Below are positions 49,088 to 64,000 of a stretch of 64,000 bases of DNA, in pieces; positions within the stretch are counted from its first letter, which is position 1; each line of letters opens with the position of its first letter. Both the position numbers and the translations under genes were made by a program. The stretch lies in contig JAIMAG010000011.1 in the NCBI GenBank assembly GCA_023512135.1, positions 1 through 64,000 on the forward strand, read 5' to 3'. Source of the DNA: Terriglobia bacterium (lineage in GTDB: Bacteria > Acidobacteriota > Terriglobia > Acidiferrales > UBA7541). The notes beneath the pieces are model-generated. The model was given only the letters and a program-made list of their open reading frames with translations. It did not search any database and had not been told where the DNA came from.

Positions 49088-49645
49088 TCAGAAGCGAATC
49101 TGGACGTCGGCGCGCTCTTCCGGTGCGGCCTGGAACAGCGGTTTCGGGGTGTAGTGCAGCAGGCGGGCGACGAAGACGTCGGGCAACTGCTGGATGCGGA
49201 TGTTGTAGGTGTTCACGGCGTCGTTGTACAGCTCGCGGCGGTCAGCGATTTGCGATTCGAGCTGGCTGATGCGGCCCTGCAGGTGGAGAAACGTCTGATT
49301 GGCCTTCAGCTCGGGATAGTTTTCGGCCACGGCAAACAGCGTCTTCAGCGCCTGCTGGGACTGCTGGTTGGCTTCGAGCTTGCCTTCGATCGTGGTGGCC
49401 CCGAGCCAGCGGGTGCGTGCGTCCACGATTTTCTGCAGCGTTTCCTGCTCGTACTGCATGTAGCCCTTGCAGGTCTCCACCAGCTTGGGCAGCTCGTCGA
49501 AGCGTTGCTTGAGCAGAACGTCGATGTTCGACCAGGCCCGGTCGCATTCGTTGCGGATGGCCACCAGCGAGTTGTACACGATGACGAAGTACAGCACCAG
49601 GCCGAGGACAACAAAAAGAACGATCGCCAGCAACAGCAGGGTCAT
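49088..49645 (-). CDS. LemA-family membrane protein (copy 1)
   Basis: LemA proteins have one N-terminal membrane segment and a helical bundle facing outward; their function is not settled. The 185-residue product has the segment MTLLLLAIVLFVVLGLVLYFVIVYNSLVAIRNECDRAWSNIDVLLKQRFDELPKLVETCKGYMQYEQETL, the LemA signature, and ends NIRIQQLPDVFVARLLHYTPKPLFQA. ATG 49645 has GGAGGAG 6 bases upstream. A second LemA gene and a GIDE-domain gene precede it on the same strand; similar LemA/GIDE clusters occur elsewhere. Confidence 0.92.
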   Translation of the reverse strand: MTLLLLAIVLFVVLGLVLYFVIVYNSLVAIRNECDRAWSNIDVLLKQRFDELPKLVETCKGYMQYEQETLQKIVDARTRWLGATTIEGKLEANQQSQQALKTLFAVAENYPELKANQTFLHLQGRISQLESQIADRRELYNDAVNTYNIRIQQLPDVFVARLLHYTPKPLFQAAPEERADVQIRF

Positions 49646-49769
49646 CGGCTCCTCCAGCAAAGTACCGCGAACACACAGATGCAAACCGCCTGCTCGTTCA
49701 GACGCACCGGGCCGGCCGAGCCCCCGGCCTCCGCCCTCGGCCGGTTGCGGCTGCCGAATGGCCCATTTC

Positions 49770-50330
49770 CTACGCGAAACTGATTTTCACATCGCCGCGG
49801 TCTTCCGGCGCAGCAGCGAACAGTTCGCGCCGCGTGAACCCGAGCAGCCGCGCGACGATGGCGTCTGGAATCTGCGCGATGCGGATGTTGTATTCATTCG
49901 TATCGGCGTTGTAGCGCTCGCGTCGCGCAGCGATTGCCGACTCGAGCTCCGAGATGCGTCCCTGGAGCTGCCGGAAATTTTCGTTGGCCTTCAGCTCCGG
50001 GTAGTTTTCCGCCACAGCGAACAACTGGCGCAGTGCGGCGGTGAGCAGGCTGTCGGCCTGGGCTTTTTCGGCGACCGAGCCAGCACTCATCACCCGCGAG
50101 CGGGCCTCGGTGATGCGCTGCAGCGTTTCCTGCTCGTACTGCATGTAGCCCTTGCAGGTGTCCACCAGCTTGGGCAGCTCGTCGTGGCGCTGGCGGAGCA
50201 GGACGTCGATGTTGGCCCAGGCGCGGTCGACGTCGTTGCGCAGGCGCACCAGACGGTTGTAGACGCCGACGAACCACAGCACCAGTCCCGCCAGAATCGC
50301 CAGCACCACCAGCAGCAGAATCAGTCCCAT
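49770..50330 (-). CDS. LemA-family membrane protein (copy 2)
   Basis: This 186-residue LemA paralogue closely parallels copy 1: a membrane segment (MGLILLLVVLAILAGLVLWFVGVYNRLVRLRNDVDRAWANIDVLLRQRHDELPKLVDTCKGYMQYEQETL), then a helical bundle and NIRIAQIPDAIVARLLGFTRRELF at the end. The two probably arose by tandem duplication and might form hetero-oligomers. The gene lies 111 bases after the GIDE-domain gene and 124 bases before copy 1, all on the minus strand. Confidence 0.92.
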   Translation of the reverse strand: MGLILLLVVLAILAGLVLWFVGVYNRLVRLRNDVDRAWANIDVLLRQRHDELPKLVDTCKGYMQYEQETLQRITEARSRVMSAGSVAEKAQADSLLTAALRQLFAVAENYPELKANENFRQLQGRISELESAIAARRERYNADTNEYNIRIAQIPDAIVARLLGFTRRELFAAAPEDRGDVKISFA

Positions 50331-55052: not shown

Positions 55053-55874
55053 TCAGAAATGGGTCAGCGTGCCCGCCATTTTGGTGCGGCGGAGCGACCA
55101 GGCAAACACCGCCAGCGAGAGCGGCAGCAGCACCGCAGCAAACAACAGCAGGGCGCGCACCGACGGCCAGACGGAAGCAAAGGAGGCACTGGCGAGCAGT
55201 GCGCTGCGCACCGCTTCCAGGGAGTAGCTGATCGGAGTCAGCCGCGCCAGCCATTGCAGTGGTTCAGGCAGCACCGCGACGGGATACATGACCCCGCCGA
55301 CCAGCGCAGAAATCCCCAGGATGGCCCAGCGGGCGGGATTGCCGCGCTTGAACAGCAGAATGTAGCTGGCCGAGAGAATGCCCAGTCCGGCGAAGGCCAG
55401 CACGGAGGCCAGCAGCACGGTAGCGGCCGCAGGCCAGTTGGCTGAGGTCACCGGGAAATCGAATACAAGCACTGCCCAGCCGAGATAGACCAGCGTGCGG
55501 AGTGAAGCACTCAGGAAAGGATAGAGGGACGAGCCGGCCAGCAGCAGCGGGACAGGAGTCTGCGTGACGAGCAGGGCTTCCAGGGCGCCGTTTTCGCGGG
55601 CTTCGCGCAGGCTGAGCTCCACCGCCACCACGGCGACGGTCAGGTAGTCGAAAAAGACGAAGCCGACAATAGCGAAGGAGAAGTAGTCGTGCCCCTGCGG
55701 CAGCGTGCGGGCGAGCGCTTCGGTCTGCACGAATTTGGAAAGATAGTAGAACGAAGCCACGCCCATCAGCGCTTCCAGCATCTCCACCAGAAAAGTGATG
55801 CGATAGCTGCGCGTGATCAGCCAGTCGCGGCGGAGAATCGCCATCAGCTTGCGGAGCGGCCGGTACAGGTTCAT
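55053..55874 (-). CDS. ABC-2 type transporter permease (possible lasso-peptide exporter)
   Basis: The 273-residue product has about six membrane helices and the layout of ABC-2 permeases: N-terminal cytoplasmic helix (LRKLMAILRRDWLITRSYRITFLVEMLEAL), VELSLREARENGALEALLVTQTPVPLLLAGSSLYPFL, and the late ISALVGGVMYPVAVLPEPLQWLARLTPISYSLEAVRSALL motif. It pairs with the ATPase gene by a 4-base overlap. The pair stands divergent from the lasso operon with no gene between, which is why I suggest it exports the lasso peptide. Typical lasso exporters are fused single-chain ABC proteins, so this is an inference. Confidence 0.85.
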   Translation of the reverse strand: MNLYRPLRKLMAILRRDWLITRSYRITFLVEMLEALMGVASFYYLSKFVQTEALARTLPQGHDYFSFAIVGFVFFDYLTVAVVAVELSLREARENGALEALLVTQTPVPLLLAGSSLYPFLSASLRTLVYLGWAVLVFDFPVTSANWPAAATVLLASVLAFAGLGILSASYILLFKRGNPARWAILGISALVGGVMYPVAVLPEPLQWLARLTPISYSLEAVRSALLASASFASVWPSVRALLLFAAVLLPLSLAVFAWSLRRTKMAGTLTHF

Positions 55875-56668
55875 GGTGCGGGCTCCGGGGACGGCAGCAG
55901 GCGGGCCAGGGCCGCTTCGAGCGTATCGGTGGCGGTGCGGCGCAGCAGCTCGGCAGGGGAAGCGCAGGCCAGCAGGCGCCCGGAGTCGAGCAGCAGAATG
56001 CGGTCGGCCAGGGCGCGCACTTCCTCCAGCGCGTGCGAGCTGAACAGAACCGTGATGCCCTCACGGTCCATCAATTCCTCGCGGAGCAGGCGGCGGAAGG
56101 ATGCCGCGGCGAGCGGGTCCAGGCTGCGGGTGGGTTCGTCGAGCAACAGCACCGGTGGCCGATGCAGCAGTGCCCGCGCGAGACTGAGGCGGTGGACCGT
56201 ACCGGTCGAAAGCGTGCGCACCTGGCGGTCGAGCGCCGGCCCCAGGTGCAGCCATTCGGCCAGCTCGGCGATGCGGGCGCGTGCTTCGGCGTCCCGAAGA
56301 TTGTTCAGGGTGGCGAAGAAGCGGAGATTTTCCCGGGCAGTGAGCCGGGCATAAAAACCGCCGTCAGTGCCGCTGTGCACGCCGATGCGGCGGCGAACTT
56401 CGGCCGGGTGCCGCACAACGTCGAAACCGGCCACGCGCGCCGTACCCCGGGTGGGCAGCAGCAGCGTGGCGAGAATGCGCAGCAGGGTGGACTTGCCCGC
56501 TCCGTTCGGGCCCACAAGGGCCATGGCGGTGCCCGGTTCCTGCGTGAAGGAAACCGCCGCCAGCGCGCGGAGCGTGGCGCGGGCGAGCGGTTGCAGCATG
56601 GCGCGCCAGCCCGTTTGCGCCGGCGGGAAATACTTGAACAGGTTTTCGACAATCAGAACCGGAGCCAC
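55871..56668 (-). CDS. ABC transporter ATP-binding protein
   Basis: The 265-residue ATPase has Walker A GPNGAGKST, the signature LSTGTVHRLSLARALL (with LSTGT in place of LSGGQ, as in antibiotic and multidrug ABC-2 ATPases), Walker B PVLLLDEPTRSLDP and a switch His (SSHALEEV). It powers the permease encoded just downstream. The start is uncertain: GTG 56668 gives the usual N-terminus (VAPVLIVENLFKYFPP) and ATG 56749 would add an unusual Cys/His-rich stretch. Confidence 0.87.
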   Translation of the reverse strand: MAPVLIVENLFKYFPPAQTGWRAMLQPLARATLRALAAVSFTQEPGTAMALVGPNGAGKSTLLRILATLLLPTRGTARVAGFDVVRHPAEVRRRIGVHSGTDGGFYARLTARENLRFFATLNNLRDAEARARIAELAEWLHLGPALDRQVRTLSTGTVHRLSLARALLHRPPVLLLDEPTRSLDPLAAASFRRLLREELMDREGITVLFSSHALEEVRALADRILLLDSGRLLACASPAELLRRTATDTLEAALARLLPSPEPAP

Positions 56669-56754
56669 AAGTTGCCCGACACAGCAATGCTTCGCTGCGT
56701 AATGATGTTTTGCGTGCACGGTTGTTATACACGAGAAGAAAGCGAACAATCCAG

Positions 56755-56783
56755 TTGCGGCTCGGGTAGGCTCTTCCTAGAAT
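56755..56783 (+). promoter_or_regulatory. Candidate promoter of the lasso-peptide operon
   Basis: TTGCGG at 56755-56760 and TAGAAT at 56778-56783 are exactly 17 bases apart. The -10 element overlaps an ATG at 56782, so that ATG cannot be the start of B1, which supports GTG 56899. Confidence 0.5.
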
Positions 56784-56898
56784 GAATGGCGGTCATCCAG
56801 CAGGAAAGCGATCCTGGAGGCTGTGCGGCCGAGTTCCGGCCAACGACGCAGGCGCAGCGCGGGGATTCACCACTACAAGCAGGGGGCGATTCGCAGTA

Positions 56899-57198
56899 GT
56901 GGAGCGCAGAATTTCACCACACACGATCGTTCGTGCGGTCAACGAGCAGGTTTTCTGCGAGCTGGCCGGTGAAGCAACCATCCTGAACCTGAAAAACGGC
57001 GTCTATTACGGGCTCGACCGGGTCGGCAGCCGCATCTGGAGCCTGCTGCAGCAGGCACGCCGGGTACAGGAGATTCGCGACACGCTGCTGGAAGAATACG
57101 AAGTCACGGCCGAGCGGTGCGAACGGGATCTGCTGGTGCTGCTCGAGCAACTCTCCGCTGAGGGTCTGATCGAGATCCAAGATGGGTCGGCTGCGTAG
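56899..57198 (+). CDS. Lasso peptide B1 / PqqD-like leader-recognition protein
   Basis: This roughly 99-residue protein is a PqqD-like RiPP recognition element. It has the strands TIVRAVNEQVFCELAGEATILNLKNGVYYGLDRVGSRIW and helices LLQQARRVQEIRDTLLEEYEVTAERCERDLLVLLEQLSAEGLI that form the winged-helix leader-binding fold. In lasso pathways B1 holds the precursor leader and presents it to the B2 protease. The start is uncertain: GTG 56899 gives the family length; ATG 56782 would add 39 Arg-rich residues and lies on the candidate promoter. It overlaps B2 by 17 bases. Confidence 0.82.
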   Translation: MERRISPHTIVRAVNEQVFCELAGEATILNLKNGVYYGLDRVGSRIWSLLQQARRVQEIRDTLLEEYEVTAERCERDLLVLLEQLSAEGLIEIQDGSAA

Positions 57199-57610
57199 AT
57201 ACCTGGGGCTGCCGGCCGCGGAGCGGCGGCTGTTCCATCGCGCCCTGGCGGCCGTGGTGCGGGTCCGCGTGCGCCTATGGTTGCTGCCGTTCGCGGTGAT
57301 TCGCAGGCAGATCGATCACGAGTCGGCGCCCCGTTCTGCACCTCGGCAGCTCTGGACGCCGGAGCAAATCGCCCGGGCCGTGCGCCGGGCCGGCCGGTGT
57401 GTGCCCCGGGCAAGCTGTCTGGTGCTGGCGCTGGCGGCACGCGAATTGTGTGCTGAGGCAGGCCACCCGACGCGAGTGCACGTGGGCGTGCGCCCGGGCG
57501 GGAAGTTCGCTGCACACGCCTGGCTGGAATGCGCGGGTCGCGTACTGCTGGGTGGCGAGGATGCCGACGACTATGCGCCGCTGCTGACGCTGGGAGAACG
57601 ACAGACATGA
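57182..57610 (+). CDS. Lasso peptide B2 protease (transglutaminase-like)
   Basis: B2 cuts the leader from the lasso precursor. The 142-residue protein has the B2-type transglutaminase core: C79 in the ASCLVLALAAREL helix and H112 in FAAHAWLE, with acidic residues (126, 127, 129, 130) after the next strand. The N-terminal helix (FHRALAAVVRVRVRLWLLPF) is typical of stand-alone B2 proteins. It overlaps B1 by 17 bases and the cyclase gene by 4 (ATGA), so all three are translationally coupled. The order B1-B2-C followed by precursors differs from clusters in which the precursor comes first. Confidence 0.88.
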   Translation: MGRLRRYLGLPAAERRLFHRALAAVVRVRVRLWLLPFAVIRRQIDHESAPRSAPRQLWTPEQIARAVRRAGRCVPRASCLVLALAARELCAEAGHPTRVHVGVRPGGKFAAHAWLECAGRVLLGGEDADDYAPLLTLGERQT

Positions 57611-59592
57611 GCGGGTTGGCGGGCATCTGGAATCTGGATGGGCGTCCGGTGGAGCGCCGGCTGCTGGCAGAGATGAACGCACGGCTGGCACACCGGGGCG
57701 GCGATGGCGAAGGTCTGTGGGTGAAAGGTGCCACGGGTCTGGCCTGCCAGTTGCGTCGCGTGACGCCCGAATCGCTGCAGGAGCGGCAGCCGCTGGTGGA
57801 TGCGGCCGGGCGCGTGCTGGTGTTCGACGGGCGGCTCGACTGCCGCGAGGAGCTGCTTGCGGCGCTGCCCGCAGGTGCTCCGGTCGCCGCCGACGCTCCG
57901 GACCCGGAGCTGCTGCTGGCCGCCTATGACGCGCTGGGCGAGCGGCTGTGGGAGCGGCTGGACGGCGATTTCGCGCTGGCCCTGTATGACGCCGGCCGAC
58001 GCGAGCTGCTGCTGGTGCGCGACCGGTTGGGCGTGCGTCCGCTGTACTACTACCAGGCCGGCGCGGTGTTCCTGTTCGCTTCGGAAATCAAACCGCTCCT
58101 GGCGCATCCGGAAGTGCGCACGCGGCCCAATGATCTCGACCTGGCCGATTTTCTGCTGGCCGATAGTCCCCTGCACCACAACGGCGTGACGTTTTTCAGC
58201 GACATCCGGCATGTGCCGCCTTCGCATCTGCTCCGCATCACGCCGCAGCAGACCGCGCTGCGCCGTTACTGGGATTTCCCCGTCGAGCGCCGGCTTCGCT
58301 TCCGGCAGCGGAGCGAATATGCCGAAGCGCTGCGGCACTACCTGGAGCGAGCGGTGCGGCGGCGACTGCGCAGCGCGTATCCGGTGGCTGTTTCGGTAAG
58401 CGGGGGTCTGGATTCTTCTTCCGTGTTCTGCCTGGCCGAGCGGCTGCGCGCTGCCGGAGCGGTGCCCCAGGTGCCGTTGTGTGGATTCACGTTCGCTACG
58501 CCGTCGGGCACGATTGCCGACGAGATGATGTATGTCGAGGCCATCGAGCGTGAATACGGCGCACGCATCGAACGCGTGCCCGTATGCCGCGGCATGCTGG
58601 ACGGGGACGCAGAGGCGATGGAGGCGGTGCGCGAGCTGGTGACGGTCACCGAGATGCCCTTCCTCGACGAACAACTGGCGACCTCGCGGCGACTCTACGC
58701 GGCCATCCGGGCGACGGGCGCCCGTACCCTGCTGACCGGGCACTGGGGCGACCAGGTGCTGTTCGCCCAGGCCTACCTGGTGGAGCTCGTCCGGCGGCTG
58801 CGCTGGCTGACCGTGTACGCACACCTGCGCGAGTACACGCGCTGGCTCACCGATACCGACCCGCGCGCGCTGTGGCAGCGCTTTCTGATGGACCTGGTGA
58901 AATATCACACGCCCGCTCGTGCGCTGCCGCTGCTGCGGCTGCTCCGCCGGAAGTTGCTGGGACGGACGCGCGATTGCGCCTGGTATGCGGACTGGTTCCG
59001 CGAGCTGGCCACCCGCGGCGTGTACCGGAATCCGTATGACGGCAAGCGGTTCGCATCGCTGCATGCGCGCTCGTTGTACGAGGATGCACGCGCGCGCTAC
59101 TACGTGCTCAGCCTGGAGTGGAACGACAAGGTCGGCGCCGCCGAGGGTTTCCAGATGGCGTTCCCGTTTCTCGATCCCGAGCTGCTCAGTTTCCTGATGG
59201 CGATTCCCGGTGAAGTGCTGACGGCCGACGGTGTCCCGAAAGCCCTGCTGCGCGAAGCCATGCGCGGCATCCTGCCGGAAGAGATTCGCGGGCGCACCTG
59301 GAAAGCGGATTTCACGGCGTTCATCCGGGAGGGCATGCAGCAGGACCTGCCGGCTCTGCTCCGGCACCTGCGGGCGGATCGGCGGCTGCGTTTGTCCGAT
59401 TATGTGGACGAAGCGCGGCTGGAGGCGATGCTGGCGGCACTGGAAGCTAACGGACTGCGACAGGGCGATCCCGAAGGCGCTCAGCTCTGCAACCTGATCG
59501 GGCTTTCGATCTGGCTGCGCCAGTTCTTTGGTGGGGACAGCGTCGCACGGACTGAAACGGCGCCATGTGAACCCGCAGCCCAGTGCGCTTGA
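57607..59592 (+). CDS. Lasso peptide cyclase C (asparagine-synthetase-like)
   Basis: The cyclase adenylates the ring-closing Asp or Glu side chain of the core and joins it to the freed N-terminus. The 661-residue protein has an N-terminal glutaminase-like domain (MSGLAGIWNLDGRPV, GEGLWVKGATGLACQLRRVTPESLQERQPL) whose catalytic Cys2 is replaced by Ser, and an AsnB-like synthetase domain with the ATP-pyrophosphatase motif S265-GGLDSS-271. The loss of Cys2 agrees with an enzyme that does not use glutamine. The start is ATG 57607, overlapping B2. The precursor gene A1 follows 36 bases after the stop. Confidence 0.88.
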   Translation: MSGLAGIWNLDGRPVERRLLAEMNARLAHRGGDGEGLWVKGATGLACQLRRVTPESLQERQPLVDAAGRVLVFDGRLDCREELLAALPAGAPVAADAPDPELLLAAYDALGERLWERLDGDFALALYDAGRRELLLVRDRLGVRPLYYYQAGAVFLFASEIKPLLAHPEVRTRPNDLDLADFLLADSPLHHNGVTFFSDIRHVPPSHLLRITPQQTALRRYWDFPVERRLRFRQRSEYAEALRHYLERAVRRRLRSAYPVAVSVSGGLDSSSVFCLAERLRAAGAVPQVPLCGFTFATPSGTIADEMMYVEAIEREYGARIERVPVCRGMLDGDAEAMEAVRELVTVTEMPFLDEQLATSRRLYAAIRATGARTLLTGHWGDQVLFAQAYLVELVRRLRWLTVYAHLREYTRWLTDTDPRALWQRFLMDLVKYHTPARALPLLRLLRRKLLGRTRDCAWYADWFRELATRGVYRNPYDGKRFASLHARSLYEDARARYYVLSLEWNDKVGAAEGFQMAFPFLDPELLSFLMAIPGEVLTADGVPKALLREAMRGILPEEIRGRTWKADFTAFIREGMQQDLPALLRHLRADRRLRLSDYVDEARLEAMLAALEANGLRQGDPEGAQLCNLIGLSIWLRQFFGGDSVARTETAPCEPAAQCA

Positions 59593-59628
59593 TTCCAATA
59601 CATGTGTTTCGGGAGGTAGGAAACCGAC

Positions 59629-59793
59629 TTGCGCCGAATCGAGGCGAATGCATGCACAAAGAAAACCTATCTGCGGCCGCGGCTCATCGTCTATGGCGAC
59701 CTGTTCCGCCTGACGCAGGTCAAGGGCGGAGCGATGGGCGATGGCGGCGGCGGTGCCAAACCCCGTACCCGGTTAGCAGGCCCTCGCACTTGA
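59629..59793 (+). CDS. Lasso peptide precursor A1 (start or frame uncertain)
   Basis: A very short gene in the gap after the cyclase. Its leader contains T-Y-L-R-P-R-L-I-V-Y-G-D-L-F-R-L-T-Q, matching the lasso leader pattern Y-x2-P-x-L-x3-G-x5-T. After T-Q comes a core of 24 residues beginning VKGGAMGD, with Asp at core position 8, then a Gly run, AKPRTR and a C-terminal GPRT. The only in-frame initiator is TTG 59629, with a GGGAGGTAGG stretch at 59611-59620, giving 54 residues. A better start, ATG 59652 with GAGG 7 bases upstream, is in the frame that would read MHKETYLRP if one A of the AAAA at 59662-59665 were missing. So this may be a frameshifted gene or a sequencing slip. The second half is nearly identical to A2, which supports coding. 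Confidence 0.6.
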   Translation: MRRIEANACTKKTYLRPRLIVYGDLFRLTQVKGGAMGDGGGGAKPRTRLAGPRT

Positions 59794-60161
59794 TCGTTGC
59801 AGGCAAGCAGGTAACCAAGGAGGACAGCGGCCAGCGCGCTGCGCAGTCGAGGCCCAGGGAACGCGTGATAGTGAATCTGCGATGAACCGCGGAAGGCTGT
59901 CCCTGCTCGGCCTCCGAAAGTGGAGCATGCGACGCTGAAGCCACTGCGAAAGTCCGGGAATCAGTGCCTCGCTGGCCGGGAAAGCGGACGTATTGAATGA
60001 TATTGTTAATTGCTGTAGCAGAACAAAAAATTATCTTGCAGCCACTGCAACCTCACGTTATTCTAATCCCGCTTTGATGGTCGGCCACCAGTGGTGCTGG
60101 CTGACGAGAGGAACGCTTCAGGTTAAAAACCAGCCATTCAGAGCGGTGGGGAGATAGGGCC
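59794..60161 (+). other. A1-A2 spacer with AT-rich promoter-like region and two dyads
   Basis: This 368-base spacer has no supported gene. Its right part (about 59990-60075) is AT-rich. It contains TTGCAG-CCA-CTGCAA (60036-60050), a perfect dyad, and an imperfect one, TGCT-GT-AGCA (60011-60020). TTGCAG at 60036 is 17 bases from TATTCT at 60059-60064, a weak candidate promoter for A2. The dyads could be a binding site for a regulator. Confidence 0.45.
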
Positions 60162-60317
60162 GTGAAAGAAGCAAAACCAGTTCCCAAGAAACCCTGGTCG
60201 GTTCCCCGTTTGACGGTTCATGGCGACCTGCTCCGCCTGACGCAGGTCAAAGGTGGAGCTTCGGGAGATGGCGGGGGCGCGAAACCAAATACCAAGTCGG
60301 CTGGTTTCCCCACTTAA
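60162..60317 (+). CDS. Lasso peptide precursor A2
   Basis: This 51-residue peptide starts at GTG 60162 with GGGGAG 8 bases upstream. Its leader of 28 residues contains W12-S-V-P15-R-L17-T-V-H-G21-D-L-L-R-L-T27-Q28, the lasso leader pattern with Trp for Tyr. Taking cleavage two residues after the conserved Thr, the core is 23 residues beginning V-K-G-G-A-S-G-D, with Asp8 the likely ring-closing residue (8-residue ring from the Val1 amine), then G-G-G-A-K-P-N-T-K-S and G-F-P-T at the end. The terminal Thr could be a target of the neighbouring kinase. It is a paralogue of A1 with the same GDLx-R-L-T-Q-V-K-G-G-A stretch. Confidence 0.78.
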   Translation: MKEAKPVPKKPWSVPRLTVHGDLLRLTQVKGGASGDGGGAKPNTKSAGFPT

Positions 60318-60402
60318 CATCAAAAGAATCCGCACGGAATTGCCCGGCCGCTCTCGGAGTATGTTTCCCCGGCGGTGTATCTGAGAACGGCTCGCACCGA
60401 AG

Positions 60403-60408
60403 TATAAT
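60403..60408 (+). promoter_or_regulatory. TATAAT element for the lasso kinase, leaderless mRNA
   Basis: A perfect TATAAT ends 8 bases before the kinase ATG and no Shine-Dalgarno site lies between. A transcript from here would start at or within 2 bases of the start codon. No good -35 hexamer is seen. Confidence 0.4.
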
Positions 60409-60416
60409 CCACCTGC

Positions 60417-61352
60417 ATGCCAATCCACCGGCTGTACGGGCTTGCTGTGCGTTGCCAGTGGCCTTTGCCATGGCCCGACGCGGAGGTAGAACCATTTGCC
60501 AGCGTGGAGGTCGGCGAAGGCGCGCCGGAAATTTTTCATGAGGGCGCCGAGCGAGCGCGGAACGGCCCCCGGCCGGATGACTGGTTTCACTGCGTGCGCC
60601 TGAGCGGTGGCGGCACCTATCTGCGGTGGGCCGGGCTGTTCGAGTTTGTGGTTTCGCCCGACGGGCACCGCATTTTTGGCCGGCCGCTGGCCGAGGCAAC
60701 CGCCGAATCGTTTCACACCTACCTGTTCGGCCAGGTGCTTTCCTTTGCGCTGCTGCGACAGGGGTGCGAACCGCTCCACGCCACCGCCGTGGTCATCAGC
60801 GGCGAGGCGGTGGCTTTCCTGGCCGACCCGGGCGGCGGGAAGTCCACGCTGGCCGCCACGTTTTTGCAAGCCGGGTTCCCGCTGCTGACGGACGACCTGC
60901 TGGTGGTCCGCCGACAGGGAGAAAGATTTTTCGCCTATCCGGGCCCGGCGCGGCTGAAGCTGTTTCCGGAAATTGCGCGTGCGGTATTGGGCCCTGTGGC
61001 CGATGGCGTGCCGTTGAACAGCGGCACACCGAAGCGCATCCTGCCGCTGGGCGAAGACCAGTGGCACCGCCGTCCGGCGCCGCTGCGCGTGCTCTATGTG
61101 CTGGACGCGGCGGAAGGCGCAAGCAGTTCGCAGCGCATTCGCATCCAGAAGCTTTCGCCTTCGCGCGGGCTGGTGGAGCTGCTCCGCGGGACCTTCAATG
61201 CGGTGATCACCGAGCCGGAGCGACTGAAGCAGCAGTTCCTGCAGACCGCGGAGCTGGCCCGGGCCATCGCGGTCAAGCGGCTCTGCTACCCGCGCGAGTT
61301 GCAGCAACTGGCTGCGGTGCGCGAGGCGGTACTGGCTGACCTGGCCCGATGA
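60417..61352 (+). CDS. HprK-like lasso peptide kinase
   Basis: The 311-residue product resembles the kinase domain of HPr kinase: H121 in LHATAVVISG, a P-loop ADPGGGKST (136-144) and the acidic pair D159-D160 in PLLTDDLLVV. It lacks the long HprK N-terminal domain. Kinases of this kind beside lasso genes (for example PadeK and ThcoK) phosphorylate the C-terminal Ser of the precursor. Here both precursors end in Thr rather than Ser, so specificity may differ. Its stop overlaps the next gene by 4 bases. Confidence 0.85.
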   Translation: MPIHRLYGLAVRCQWPLPWPDAEVEPFASVEVGEGAPEIFHEGAERARNGPRPDDWFHCVRLSGGGTYLRWAGLFEFVVSPDGHRIFGRPLAEATAESFHTYLFGQVLSFALLRQGCEPLHATAVVISGEAVAFLADPGGGKSTLAATFLQAGFPLLTDDLLVVRRQGERFFAYPGPARLKLFPEIARAVLGPVADGVPLNSGTPKRILPLGEDQWHRRPAPLRVLYVLDAAEGASSSQRIRIQKLSPSRGLVELLRGTFNAVITEPERLKQQFLQTAELARAIAVKRLCYPRELQQLAAVREAVLADLAR

Positions 61353-63016
61353 CGACCCTTTCCAAATCTACTGCCAGCAACGCAGCCGCACTCCGCCCGG
61401 AGCAGGCCGCGCTGTTGCTGCTGGCGCGAACGGAACTGGACACCACCCAGCAGGCGCAACTGCGCTCCCTGCTCGGCCAGGTGGACTGGGATAGTTTGAT
61501 TCTTCTGGCCGAACGACACGGGCTGCTGCCATTGCTGAACGAGCATCTGGCCCGCATCGAGCCAGGCGCGCTGCCGCCACACTGGCAGCCGTTTGTGGCG
61601 CGCTACGTGGAAGCGGCTGCGGTCAACGGGTTGGAGCTCACCGCGGAGCTGGTGCGCGTGGTCCGCGCCCTGGCCGAGCAGGGCATCACCGCCGTGCCGT
61701 ACAAGGGCCCGGTGGTGGCCAAACAGCTCTTCGGCAATCTGGCGCTGCGCATGTTCGGCGACCTGGACCTTCTGGTGCGGGAGCGCGACATAGTCGCAGC
61801 GGCTGCCGTGCTGGAGCGATGCGGCTACGCCGCAACGTTCGGCTTCGATACAACCAGGCCCTGGCGCCACGGCGCACCGGGCCAGTATGCATTCCGGCAC
61901 CGTGAGCAGCACCGCCTGGTGGAACTCCACACCGAAGCGACCCTGCGCTATTTCCCCGTGCGCGCTGATTTCGATGAATTCTGGCTCCGGCTGCAGCCCC
62001 TGCCGATGGGCGACGCAAGCCTCTCCACGCTGGCTGCGGAAGACCTGCTGCTGTTTCTGTGCGTGCATGGCGCGAAGGATTTCTGGGAGCGGCTGGCGTG
62101 GATTGCCGATGTGGCGCAGCTGGTGCGGAAGCATCCGGATTTGGACTGGGCAGCGGCGCTGGAGCGCGCGGAACGCTACGGCGCCGGACGAATCGTGCGG
62201 CTGGGGCTGACGCTGGCGCAGGATTTGCTGGATGCGCCGCTGCCGGAAAGCATCGCCGCGCAGGTGCGCGCGGATGCGGTTGCCGTTTCGCTGGCGCGGC
62301 AGATTGCCCGGGAGTTGTTCGCCGAAGCGAGCAGCTTCGAAGGGCTCATGCGACGGTTCTGGTTTCGCCTGCGACTGCACGGCCAGGTGGGCGGAGGGCT
62401 GCGCTATGCGTCGCGGATGGTGCTCCTGCCCACGGAGGAAGACTGGGAGGCGGTGCGACTGCCGCAGGCATTGCACGGGCTGTATTACCTGGTGCGGCCG
62501 GCGCGGCTGGCGTGGCGGTATGGCATGGGGCTGCTGGGTCGCGCGAAGGTACCGGACCTGGGCAACTACGTGCCGACGCCGGAAGAAGTGGTCGTGCGGA
62601 TGCTGGAGCTGGCCGAGGTGAAGCCAGAAGACGTGGTCTACGACCTGGGCTGCGGCGATGGCCGCTGCGTGGTGCTGGCGGCGAAGCGATTCGGCGCGCG
62701 CGGCGTGGGCGTGGAGATCGACCCGCGGCGCATTGCGGAAGCGCGTGCACGCGTCCGGCGCGAGGGCGTGGCCGACCGGGTGCGCATCCTGCAGCAGGAT
62801 GCGCGCCGCGTGTCCCTGCGCGAGGCCACTGTGGTGCTGTTGACCCTGACCGGCATGGCCCACCTGAAGCTGCGGGAGAAGTTGCGCCGGGAGCTCCCTG
62901 CCGGAGCACGCATCGTGGCCCGGCGGAATCACCTGGGCGCCTGGGCACCGGCGCATTCGGAAGAGTTTGTGGACCATGGGGGCGCGGTGAACGTGCTCTA
63001 CCTGTGGCGGTTGTGA
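61349..63016 (+). CDS. Nucleotidyltransferase fused to a class I SAM methyltransferase
   Basis: The 555-residue protein has two parts. Residues about 1-380 match the nucleotidyltransferase family found in lasso clusters with kinases (as in paeninodin): VPYKGPVVAKQLFGNLALRMFGDLDLLV, with D138 and D140 as likely metal ligands, and a later helical region. Residues about 395-555 form a class I methyltransferase: NYVPTPEEVVVRMLEL, VYDLGCGDGRCVVLAAKRFG (DLGCGDG at 432) and VEIDPRRIAEAR. I do not know this fusion from described lasso clusters. Possible target: the phosphorylated or C-terminal carboxyl end of the peptide; this is speculation. It overlaps the kinase gene by 4 bases. Confidence 0.8.
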   Translation: MTTLSKSTASNAAALRPEQAALLLLARTELDTTQQAQLRSLLGQVDWDSLILLAERHGLLPLLNEHLARIEPGALPPHWQPFVARYVEAAAVNGLELTAELVRVVRALAEQGITAVPYKGPVVAKQLFGNLALRMFGDLDLLVRERDIVAAAAVLERCGYAATFGFDTTRPWRHGAPGQYAFRHREQHRLVELHTEATLRYFPVRADFDEFWLRLQPLPMGDASLSTLAAEDLLLFLCVHGAKDFWERLAWIADVAQLVRKHPDLDWAAALERAERYGAGRIVRLGLTLAQDLLDAPLPESIAAQVRADAVAVSLARQIARELFAEASSFEGLMRRFWFRLRLHGQVGGGLRYASRMVLLPTEEDWEAVRLPQALHGLYYLVRPARLAWRYGMGLLGRAKVPDLGNYVPTPEEVVVRMLELAEVKPEDVVYDLGCGDGRCVVLAAKRFGARGVGVEIDPRRIAEARARVRREGVADRVRILQQDARRVSLREATVVLLTLTGMAHLKLREKLRRELPAGARIVARRNHLGAWAPAHSEEFVDHGGAVNVLYLWRL

Positions 63017-63083: not shown

Positions 63084-64000
63084 ATGGAGTATGCGCTGAC
63101 CTCCCCTTCCCGGCGTATTCTGTTTCTCGGCGCCGTACTGCTGGTGGCGCTCGTGTTGGTGGGCGCTGGCGGCAGGGTGTATCTGGCCGCCCGGGCTGCG
63201 GCATCCGAGTCTCCGGAGGCACTGGCGCGGGCGCTGCGGCTGGAACCCGGCAACGCCGCGTACTGGCACCGCGCCGGATTGTTCTATCAGTTCGATTTCA
63301 CCCGGGCCGACATCGAAACCGCCATCGCGCATCTGCGGCGGGCCGCGGAGCTGAATCCGCACGAGGCAAACTACTGGCTCGATCTGGCCGCGGCACACGA
63401 AGCCGCAGGACGCATCGAACCGGCTCGCGAAGCTTTTCTGCGAGCCCGGCAGGCGTACCCGATCTCGGCGGAGGTCGGCTGGAAATACGGCAACTTTCTG
63501 CTGCGGCAGGGAGAGCTGGAAGCGGCGCTGGCCGAAATCCGTCGGGCGGTGGACACCGACCCGCGACTGGCCCGACTGGCTGTGGCGCTGTGCTGGCGCG
63601 CGACGGGCGACGCCGAGCGCGTGCTCGGCGAAGCGCTGCCGCAACGACGGGAAGCTTATCTGGCGGCACTGAGTTTCCTGCTGAGTGAGCGGCAGGCGGA
63701 GGCCGCCTTGGCCGCCTGGACGCGACTGGTGGTCCTGGGTCCGCCGGTGCCGTTGCGCGAGGTGCTGCCGCTGGTCGATGTGCTGATGCGCGGCGGTGGA
63801 GTGGACCGCGCGCGGCAGGTTTGGCTCGAAGCGTTGCGGATGGCAGGTGAGGACCCTGAAGGCAAGGCCGCGACTACGCTGGTGTGGAACGGCGGATTCG
63901 AACGGGATTTGGTGAATGGCGGATTCGGCTGGCGCACCCAGCCCGTGTCGGGAGCGGAAGTGGAACTGGACAGCCAAGTATACCGTTCCGCGCCGCGTGC
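63084..64000 (+). CDS. Membrane-anchored TPR protein (3' end off the window)
   Basis: The open frame begins at ATG 63084 and runs off the right edge, so only 305 residues are seen. It has an N-terminal membrane segment (residues 10-29, RRILFLGAVLLVALVLVGAGG), then about six tetratricopeptide-like helix pairs, for example DIETAIAHLRRAAELNPHEANYWLDLAAAHEAAGRIEPAREAFLRARQA and ELEAALAEIRRAVDTDPRLARLAVALCWRATGDAERVLGEALP. The visible end (WNGGFERDLVNGGFGWR) resembles the start of a carbohydrate-binding-like domain. The gene follows the fusion gene by 67 bases. Its part in the lasso pathway, if any, is not evident. Confidence 0.7.
   Translation, partial: MEYALTSPSRRILFLGAVLLVALVLVGAGGRVYLAARAAASESPEALARALRLEPGNAAYWHRAGLFYQFDFTRADIETAIAHLRRAAELNPHEANYWLDLAAAHEAAGRIEPAREAFLRARQAYPISAEVGWKYGNFLLRQGELEAALAEIRRAVDTDPRLARLAVALCWRATGDAERVLGEALPQRREAYLAALSFLLSERQAEAALAAWTRLVVLGPPVPLREVLPLVDVLMRGGGVDRARQVWLEALRMAGEDPEGKAATTLVWNGGFERDLVNGGFGWRTQPVSGAEVELDSQVYRSAPR

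Follow-up and report, generated by a model that had tools for sequence, protein, structure and literature searches.

The closest described relatives of the system analysed here are the paeninodin and pseudomycoidin clusters of Bacillota (with PadeK, ThcoK, PsmK and PsmN) and the bsf cluster of Bradymonas sediminis (BsfA, BsfB1, BsfB2, BsfC, BsfK and BsfN). A nucleotidyltransferase of the PF14907 type was named in the pseudomycoidin cluster, where PsmN adds hexoses to phosphoserine (PMC9266682). The bsf cluster combines a kinase with a nucleotidyltransferase; BsfK acts on the precursor, aided by B1, and phospho-lasso precursors have also been described from Acidobacteriaceae and Sphingomonadales (PMC10368454). 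Here we describe a locus in an uncultured Terriglobia bacterium (contig JAIMAG010000011.1, positions 1 to 64,000; this whole stretch of 64,000 nucleotides is called the window below). From its genes, the locus is almost certainly a complete lasso-peptide gene cluster, with two precursors and of the phospho-lasso type.

The locus resembles the paeninodin and pseudomycoidin clusters in its split B1 and B2, its cyclase C, its kinase with catalytic His, Lys, Asp and Asp and its nucleotidyltransferase, which is PsmN-like by its match to the PF14907 family profile. Unlike the paeninodin type, it has candidate Thr acceptors without a C-terminal Ser, an ABC-2 exporter pair, a fused methyltransferase and two precursors. 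As in bsf, the kinase and nucleotidyltransferase occur together outside Bacillota; however, BsfK modifies Ser3 in the ring and the BsfA leader has Ile at position -2, whereas both precursors in the window carry Thr(-2), with core positions 2-5 free of Ser and Thr. The first-pass annotation had linked the kinase–nucleotidyltransferase pairing to clusters of Firmicutes. That the pairing is a Firmicutes trait, and hence unusual in this setting, does not hold, as both genes are present in bsf, and 52 of the 396 Acidobacteriota genomes sampled contain kinase homologues (E<=1e-8). All genes were found where that annotation had placed them, with the overlaps that it described (B1/B2, 17 bp; B2/C, 4 bp; kinase/transferase, 4 bp):

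56899-57198, plus strand: B1, PqqD-like leader-binding protein (RiPP recognition element, RRE; RiPP, ribosomally synthesized and post-translationally modified peptide), GTG start; PF05402, 68.7 bits
57182-57610, plus strand: B2, transglutaminase-like leader peptidase; NF033537, 83.7 bits (cut-off 33); PF13471, 78.5 bits
57607-59592, plus strand: C, asparagine-synthetase-like lasso cyclase; PF00733, 152 bits; PF13537
59629-59793, plus strand: precursor A1, TTG start, leader YxxPxLxxxGx5T; NF033528, 25.4 bits (cut-off 33)
60162-60317, plus strand: precursor A2, GTG start; NF033528, 26.7 bits (cut-off 33)
60417-61352, plus strand: HprK-like lasso precursor kinase; TIGR04352, 36.9 bits (cut-off 200); Hpr_kinase_C, 18.9 bits
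61349..62524, plus strand: nucleotidyltransferase part of the fusion protein (gene 61349-63016); PF14907, 201 bits over aa 44-294 (cut-off 31)
62555..63016, plus strand: class I S-adenosylmethionine (SAM) methyltransferase domain of the fusion, aKMT4-like (~aa 403-555); 115 bits to 5fa8 and 5bxy
55053..55874, minus strand: ABC-2 exporter permease; PF01061, 52 bits
55871..56668, minus strand: ABC exporter ATPase, GTG start; PF00005, 103 bits; TIGR01188 (DrrA-like), 211 bits

What identifies the lasso cluster is the combination of a B1 RRE, a B2 peptidase, a C cyclase and a precursor with the leader motif and an Asp or Glu at core position 7-9. The first-pass annotation had staked its claim on lasso profile matches for B2 and C, and both were found (NF033537 for B2; NF033535, 380 bits, for C). 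The best NCBIfam match of B1 was the lasso PqqD family NF033536 (74.3 bits, slightly under the cut-off of 80); an upstream ATG at 56782 is a possible alternative start, but the similarity with relatives sets in at residue 3 when translation is taken from 56899. C keeps the PP-loop SGGLDSSS and, because its sequence begins MSGLAG, lacks the Cys2 of asparagine synthetase. The source genome (2.83 Mb, 51 contigs) contains one copy of B2.

The leader of each precursor shows the lasso motif with Thr(-2) and ends in LTQ. The A1 core, VKGGAMGDGGGGAKPRTRLAGPRT (59719-59790), divides into VKGGAMGD-GGGGAKPRTRLAGPRT and the A2 core, VKGGASGDGGGAKPNTKSAGFPT (60246-60314), into VKGGASGD-GGGAKPNTKSAGFPT. In each, an 8-residue ring from Val1 to Asp8 is predicted, and Asp8 is kept in the two cores, VKGGGMGDGGGGAKPRTRLSGQRT and LKGGAANDGGGGKPNTRSTGLPT, of a genome of the same genus (G396, JAIMBE010000040.1, locus L106). 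The A1 core contains no Ser, and its sole hydroxyl residues, Thr17 and Thr24, are each kept in G396. Neither core in the window has the C-terminal Ser that accepts phosphate in the paeninodin type. Elsewhere in the family, when precursors were delimited by the Thr(-2) rule, some of those at L138, L142 and L143 (TKAHTSTNMD, SITKTHVTAD and SATMTVTHMLD) had their first Asp at core position 10 or 11, beyond the usual 7-9 ring. A sister lasso group in the same family (L144, L149, L150 and L152) has cores containing His and Cys, for example TASSGTCDNPSNPQSCGNHSTGAVK; its loci carry the kinase and the nucleotidyltransferase, and a PRMT-like gene, described below, is absent from them.

G396, the only genome of the same genus that we compared, contains the whole cluster in unchanged order at 67-91% identity (exporter permease 91%, B1 86%, C 85%, A2 80%). 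The pairwise ratio of nonsynonymous to synonymous substitution rates (dN/dS) was 0.11-0.36 for every cluster gene and 0.18 for A2. Since G396 has the full set in equal order, with the same start codons and under purifying selection, the cluster is more than a chance assembly; the retained TTG (A1) and GTG (A2) starts, together with this dN/dS range, likewise indicate that both precursors are real genes. The profile matches and the conservation in G396 thus bear out the first-pass annotation on the lasso cluster with its two precursors, on the kinase and the nucleotidyltransferase, and on the fused methyltransferase. The exporter pair belongs to the cluster as well, because a divergent pair of this kind also neighbours B1 in six or more further clusters of the family (L142, L144, L147, L149, L150 and L154; permease 55-64% identity, ATPase 60-64% in the equivalent place). 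Seven loci were reached by contig scans with single-protein patterns, which covered close relatives only; L111 and L150 are one contig. The acidobacterial setting proposed earlier also stands: the nearest named relatives are Acidobacteriota metagenome-assembled genomes (MAGs), and a genome of the same family (L111/L150) is also one, even though the same-genus MAG, G396, is recorded as Bacillota. As the kin of G396 are Acidobacteriota, this label is probably wrong.

The best NCBIfam match of the kinase is HprK_rel_A (TIGR04352). Its H121, G141-K142-S143 and D159-D160 are invariant in nine relatives, and these residue types (H, GKS, DD) are essential in PadeK/ThcoK and in BsfK (PMC9266682, PMC10368454). 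We find it very probable that the precursor is phosphorylated. When 56 kinases of lasso-type loci were placed in a tree, the kinase of the window fell in a clade of ten members (support 99/100) from several families, whose precursor tails have in common Asp8-Gly...-[PN]-x-[TS]-[RK] (PRTR, PNTK, PKTR, PKTR, PNTR, GNTK, NMSR). A separate, larger group of kinase-linked cores has [KR]T 0-3 residues from the C-terminal end; such ends occurred in 20 of 50 kinase-linked cores, compared to 2.4 expected from shuffled cores, and in 0 of 9 kinase-less cores. Because of these tail motifs and this enrichment, we take the acceptor to be probably Thr and not a paeninodin-like C-terminal Ser; moreover, as A1 has no Ser, a kinase acting on A1 must use Thr17 or Thr24. 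The +80 mass shift expected in the first-pass annotation is reasonable, though not on a C-terminal Ser of the paeninodin type, which is absent here; the +14 shift that it expected from a methyl group is a prediction.

In the fusion protein, the nucleotidyltransferase domain matches the PF14907 profile and keeps the invariant KG...FGDLDLLV with its DxD. A sequence search of solved structures with this domain gave no match. Its structure model was good (predicted local distance difference test, pLDDT, ~90), and the Foldseek matches were nucleotidyltransferases, including MenAT1, LnuA, ANT(2'') and FKRP, with modest scores. The methyltransferase domain aligned end to end with aKMT4, an archaeal protein-lysine N-methyltransferase (5jwj, 111 bits; 5fa8), and with Salinibacter 5bxy, and it keeps the SAM motif DLGCGDGR. 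Unlike aKMT4, it is fused to PF14907, stays below the curated cut-off of NF041081 (109 bits; cut-off 200) and has changed signatures, with LTLTG in place of the LYLL and ARRNHLG in place of the SHxFxMG of the solo enzymes. The loss of the two signatures suggests that the fused domain acts on another acceptor. Its own structure model was unusable (pLDDT 30-48), because only two fused sequences were present in the alignment. StspM and LasF (lassomycin type) offer an analogy for a methyltransferase that is encoded in a lasso cluster and acts on the precursor; these have been described as C-terminal O-methyltransferases modelled on mitomycin-7-O-methyltransferase, and by this description the domain in the window belongs to another family.

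The methyltransferase is fused in 4 of 42 PF14907 proteins of the collected loci: that of the window, that of G396 and two from G148, which belongs to a different family. A single origin of the four fusions was rejected by the nucleotidyltransferase tree (approximately unbiased, AU, test, p 0.032), whereas the methyltransferase tree did not discriminate (p 0.285). The trees thus make it likelier that the fusion arose twice, with long branches as a caveat.

Taken together, the best explanation, to which we assign a probability of about 0.7, is a phospho-lasso cluster with a Thr phosphate, addition of a sugar or nucleotide, and methylation. Genes, motifs, conservation and selection are read from the sequence, and every chemical step is inferred from them. 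B1 would bind the leaders of A1 and A2, B2 would cleave after LTQ, and C would link Val1 to Asp8 to form an 8-residue ring with the tail threaded through it. Before or during maturation the kinase would phosphorylate a tail Thr, either that of P-x-T-[RK] (A1 Thr17, A2 Thr16) or the C-terminal one (A1 Thr24, A2 Thr23). The PF14907 domain may then add a sugar or nucleotide onto the phosphate, a role that we propose because PsmN acts in this way on phosphoserine; that this domain acts on the precursor phosphate is a reading that we favour somewhat. The fused aKMT4-like domain would methylate either the added group or the peptide, in which a core Lys is the obvious first candidate. We regard methylation of the lasso product as likely and its placement on Lys as somewhat less likely than not, and the ABC-2 pump would export the product.

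Several points weigh against this explanation. The cyclase does not reach the cut-off of 525 of its best NCBIfam family, NF033535, and the precursors and the kinase also miss their NCBIfam cut-offs. The cores are rich in Gly and show no residue that would clearly serve as a bulky plug, and rings seldom begin with Val. With respect to the acceptor, LppK, an HprK-like RiPP kinase, rejected a change from Ser to Thr (PMC13381572), whereas BsfK has been described as somewhat tolerant (PMC10368454), and the shuffled-core test ignores sequence kinship and is a rough guide. A lysine target is made doubtful by the loss of the LYLL and SHxFxMG signatures, and one G148 precursor beside the fusions contains no Lys.

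Three other explanations have to be considered. The phosphate could be placed solely on the C-terminal Thr, with the internal P-x-T-[RK] serving threading and its Arg or Lys acting as plug. We consider this a serious contender, somewhat short of an even chance, as the C-terminal residue is Thr in both cores of the window and both of G396, many relatives have [KR]T at the end or within 3 residues of it, and it is the last residue that carries the modification in paeninodin, ThcoA and pseudomycoidin. Within the clade to which the kinase of the window belongs, however, it is the [PN]-x-[TS]-[RK] site that recurs, and several cores end in residues other than Thr (G116 ...AAP, G261 ...PQA, G095 ...GTA, G088 ...SRI). 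Alternatively, the fused methyltransferase could be a stray housekeeping-type domain that was joined on by chance and leaves the lasso product untouched. Solo relatives are indeed widespread in Acidobacteriota (~50% identity), and 38 of the 42 PF14907 proteins of lasso loci have no methyltransferase. Yet the domain is under the strongest constraint among the tailoring genes (dN/dS between the window and G396 of 0.127, compared to 0.263 for the nucleotidyltransferase domain), its altered acceptor motifs are common to both species, the fusion recurs, probably with a separate origin, in the unrelated family of G148, where a lasso kinase, a cyclase and a precursor lie nearby, and a PRMT-like gene fills a similar place elsewhere. 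We therefore hold a stray domain to be unlikely.

Finally, the kinase, PqqD-like protein and nucleotidyltransferase could form a non-lasso, HPr-rel-A-like cassette for the adjacent polysaccharide locus, and the precursors would then be non-lasso substrates. The HprK_rel_A match of the kinase and the polysaccharide operon directly downstream fit such a cassette, as does a Bacillota RiPP family with an HprK-like kinase, an RRE and an NTP transferase without a lasso cyclase (PMC13381572). This is very improbable here, since B2 scores 50 bits above the cut-off for lasso B2, C is lasso-cyclase-like without Cys2, and both precursors have the lasso leader motif, Thr(-2) and Asp8.

The PRMT-like gene mentioned above encodes a protein arginine methyltransferase (PRMT)-like enzyme unrelated to the aKMT4-like domain and is present in 24 of 54 kinase-bearing lasso loci (L154:7387-8526, L141:10399-11538, L085:8279-9415 and 21 further loci). 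PF22528 (PRMT_C) was above its cut-off in the one full-length protein tested. In the family of the window the order is often kinase, PRMT-like gene, nucleotidyltransferase. The fusion loci (the window, L081 and L082) lack the PRMT-like gene, and both types of methyltransferase were never found at one locus. We read the fused domain and the PRMT-like gene as two solutions for methylating a phosphorylated lasso peptide. An apparent link between [KR]T ends and the presence of a methyltransferase (Fisher p 0.014) disappeared in independent pairs on the kinase tree. We found no relevant paper on lasso peptides with an arginine methyltransferase in the open-licence literature.

An exopolysaccharide operon starts 68 bases 3' of the fusion gene, a position that is kept in G396. 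Its first gene is the following:

63084..64000, plus strand: TPR protein (Pfam TPR)

The operon extends past the end of the window (L178 1085-8126), in the order TPR, Wzy_C, Poly_export/SLBB (Wza), GNVR/Wzz kinase (Wzc), epimerase and further sugar genes. Wzy, Wza or Wzc genes lay within 10 kb of B1 or B2 in 19 of 57 kinase-bearing lasso loci compared to 1 of 24 kinase-less loci (Fisher p 0.0046), and within 6 kb in 13 of 57 compared to 1 of 24 (p 0.055). The lone kinase-less locus with such genes, L084, is on a truncated contig, and its C is 60% identical to that of the window. The matches near kinase-bearing loci came from several families and had differing gene orders. Because related genomes inflate these counts, which were made without a random-locus background, we take the linkage, which is one of position, as a lead. 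A wider reading is that, in Acidobacteriota, lasso clusters with a kinase are functionally part of exopolysaccharide loci and do not serve to make free antibiotics, with methylation by aKMT4-like or PRMT-like enzymes as a regular third step. The phosphate and the PF14907 transferase would then link the peptide with a sugar or a polysaccharide from the neighbouring Wzy/Wza/Wzc pathway, or the peptide would become a signal controlling this pathway. In the structure model, the PF14907 fold resembles, among others, that of FKRP, a sugar-phosphate transferase. We think it improbable that this wider reading holds as a whole. Further away, at 49088-50330 on the minus strand, two small membrane proteins that resemble each other, each with one helix, are encoded in tandem; by eye they look LemA-like.

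The general type of the cluster is thus already known, and its novel details, as predicted from the sequence, are the fused methyltransferase, the threonine-only acceptor sites and the recurring polysaccharide neighbourhood. No description of a nucleotidyltransferase–methyltransferase fusion in a lasso cluster, or of a link between lasso peptides and exopolysaccharide (also when searched with PqqD), was found in the open-licence literature. The small, biochemically opened group of phosphorylated lasso peptides is widened by a clade in which the expected acceptor is Thr, and the natural fusion couples two tailoring steps, both poorly understood, to a single substrate. The link between phospho-lasso clusters and exopolysaccharide export is recurring and apparently undescribed, and it suggests that phosphorylated, glycosylated lasso peptides may have a role at the cell surface.

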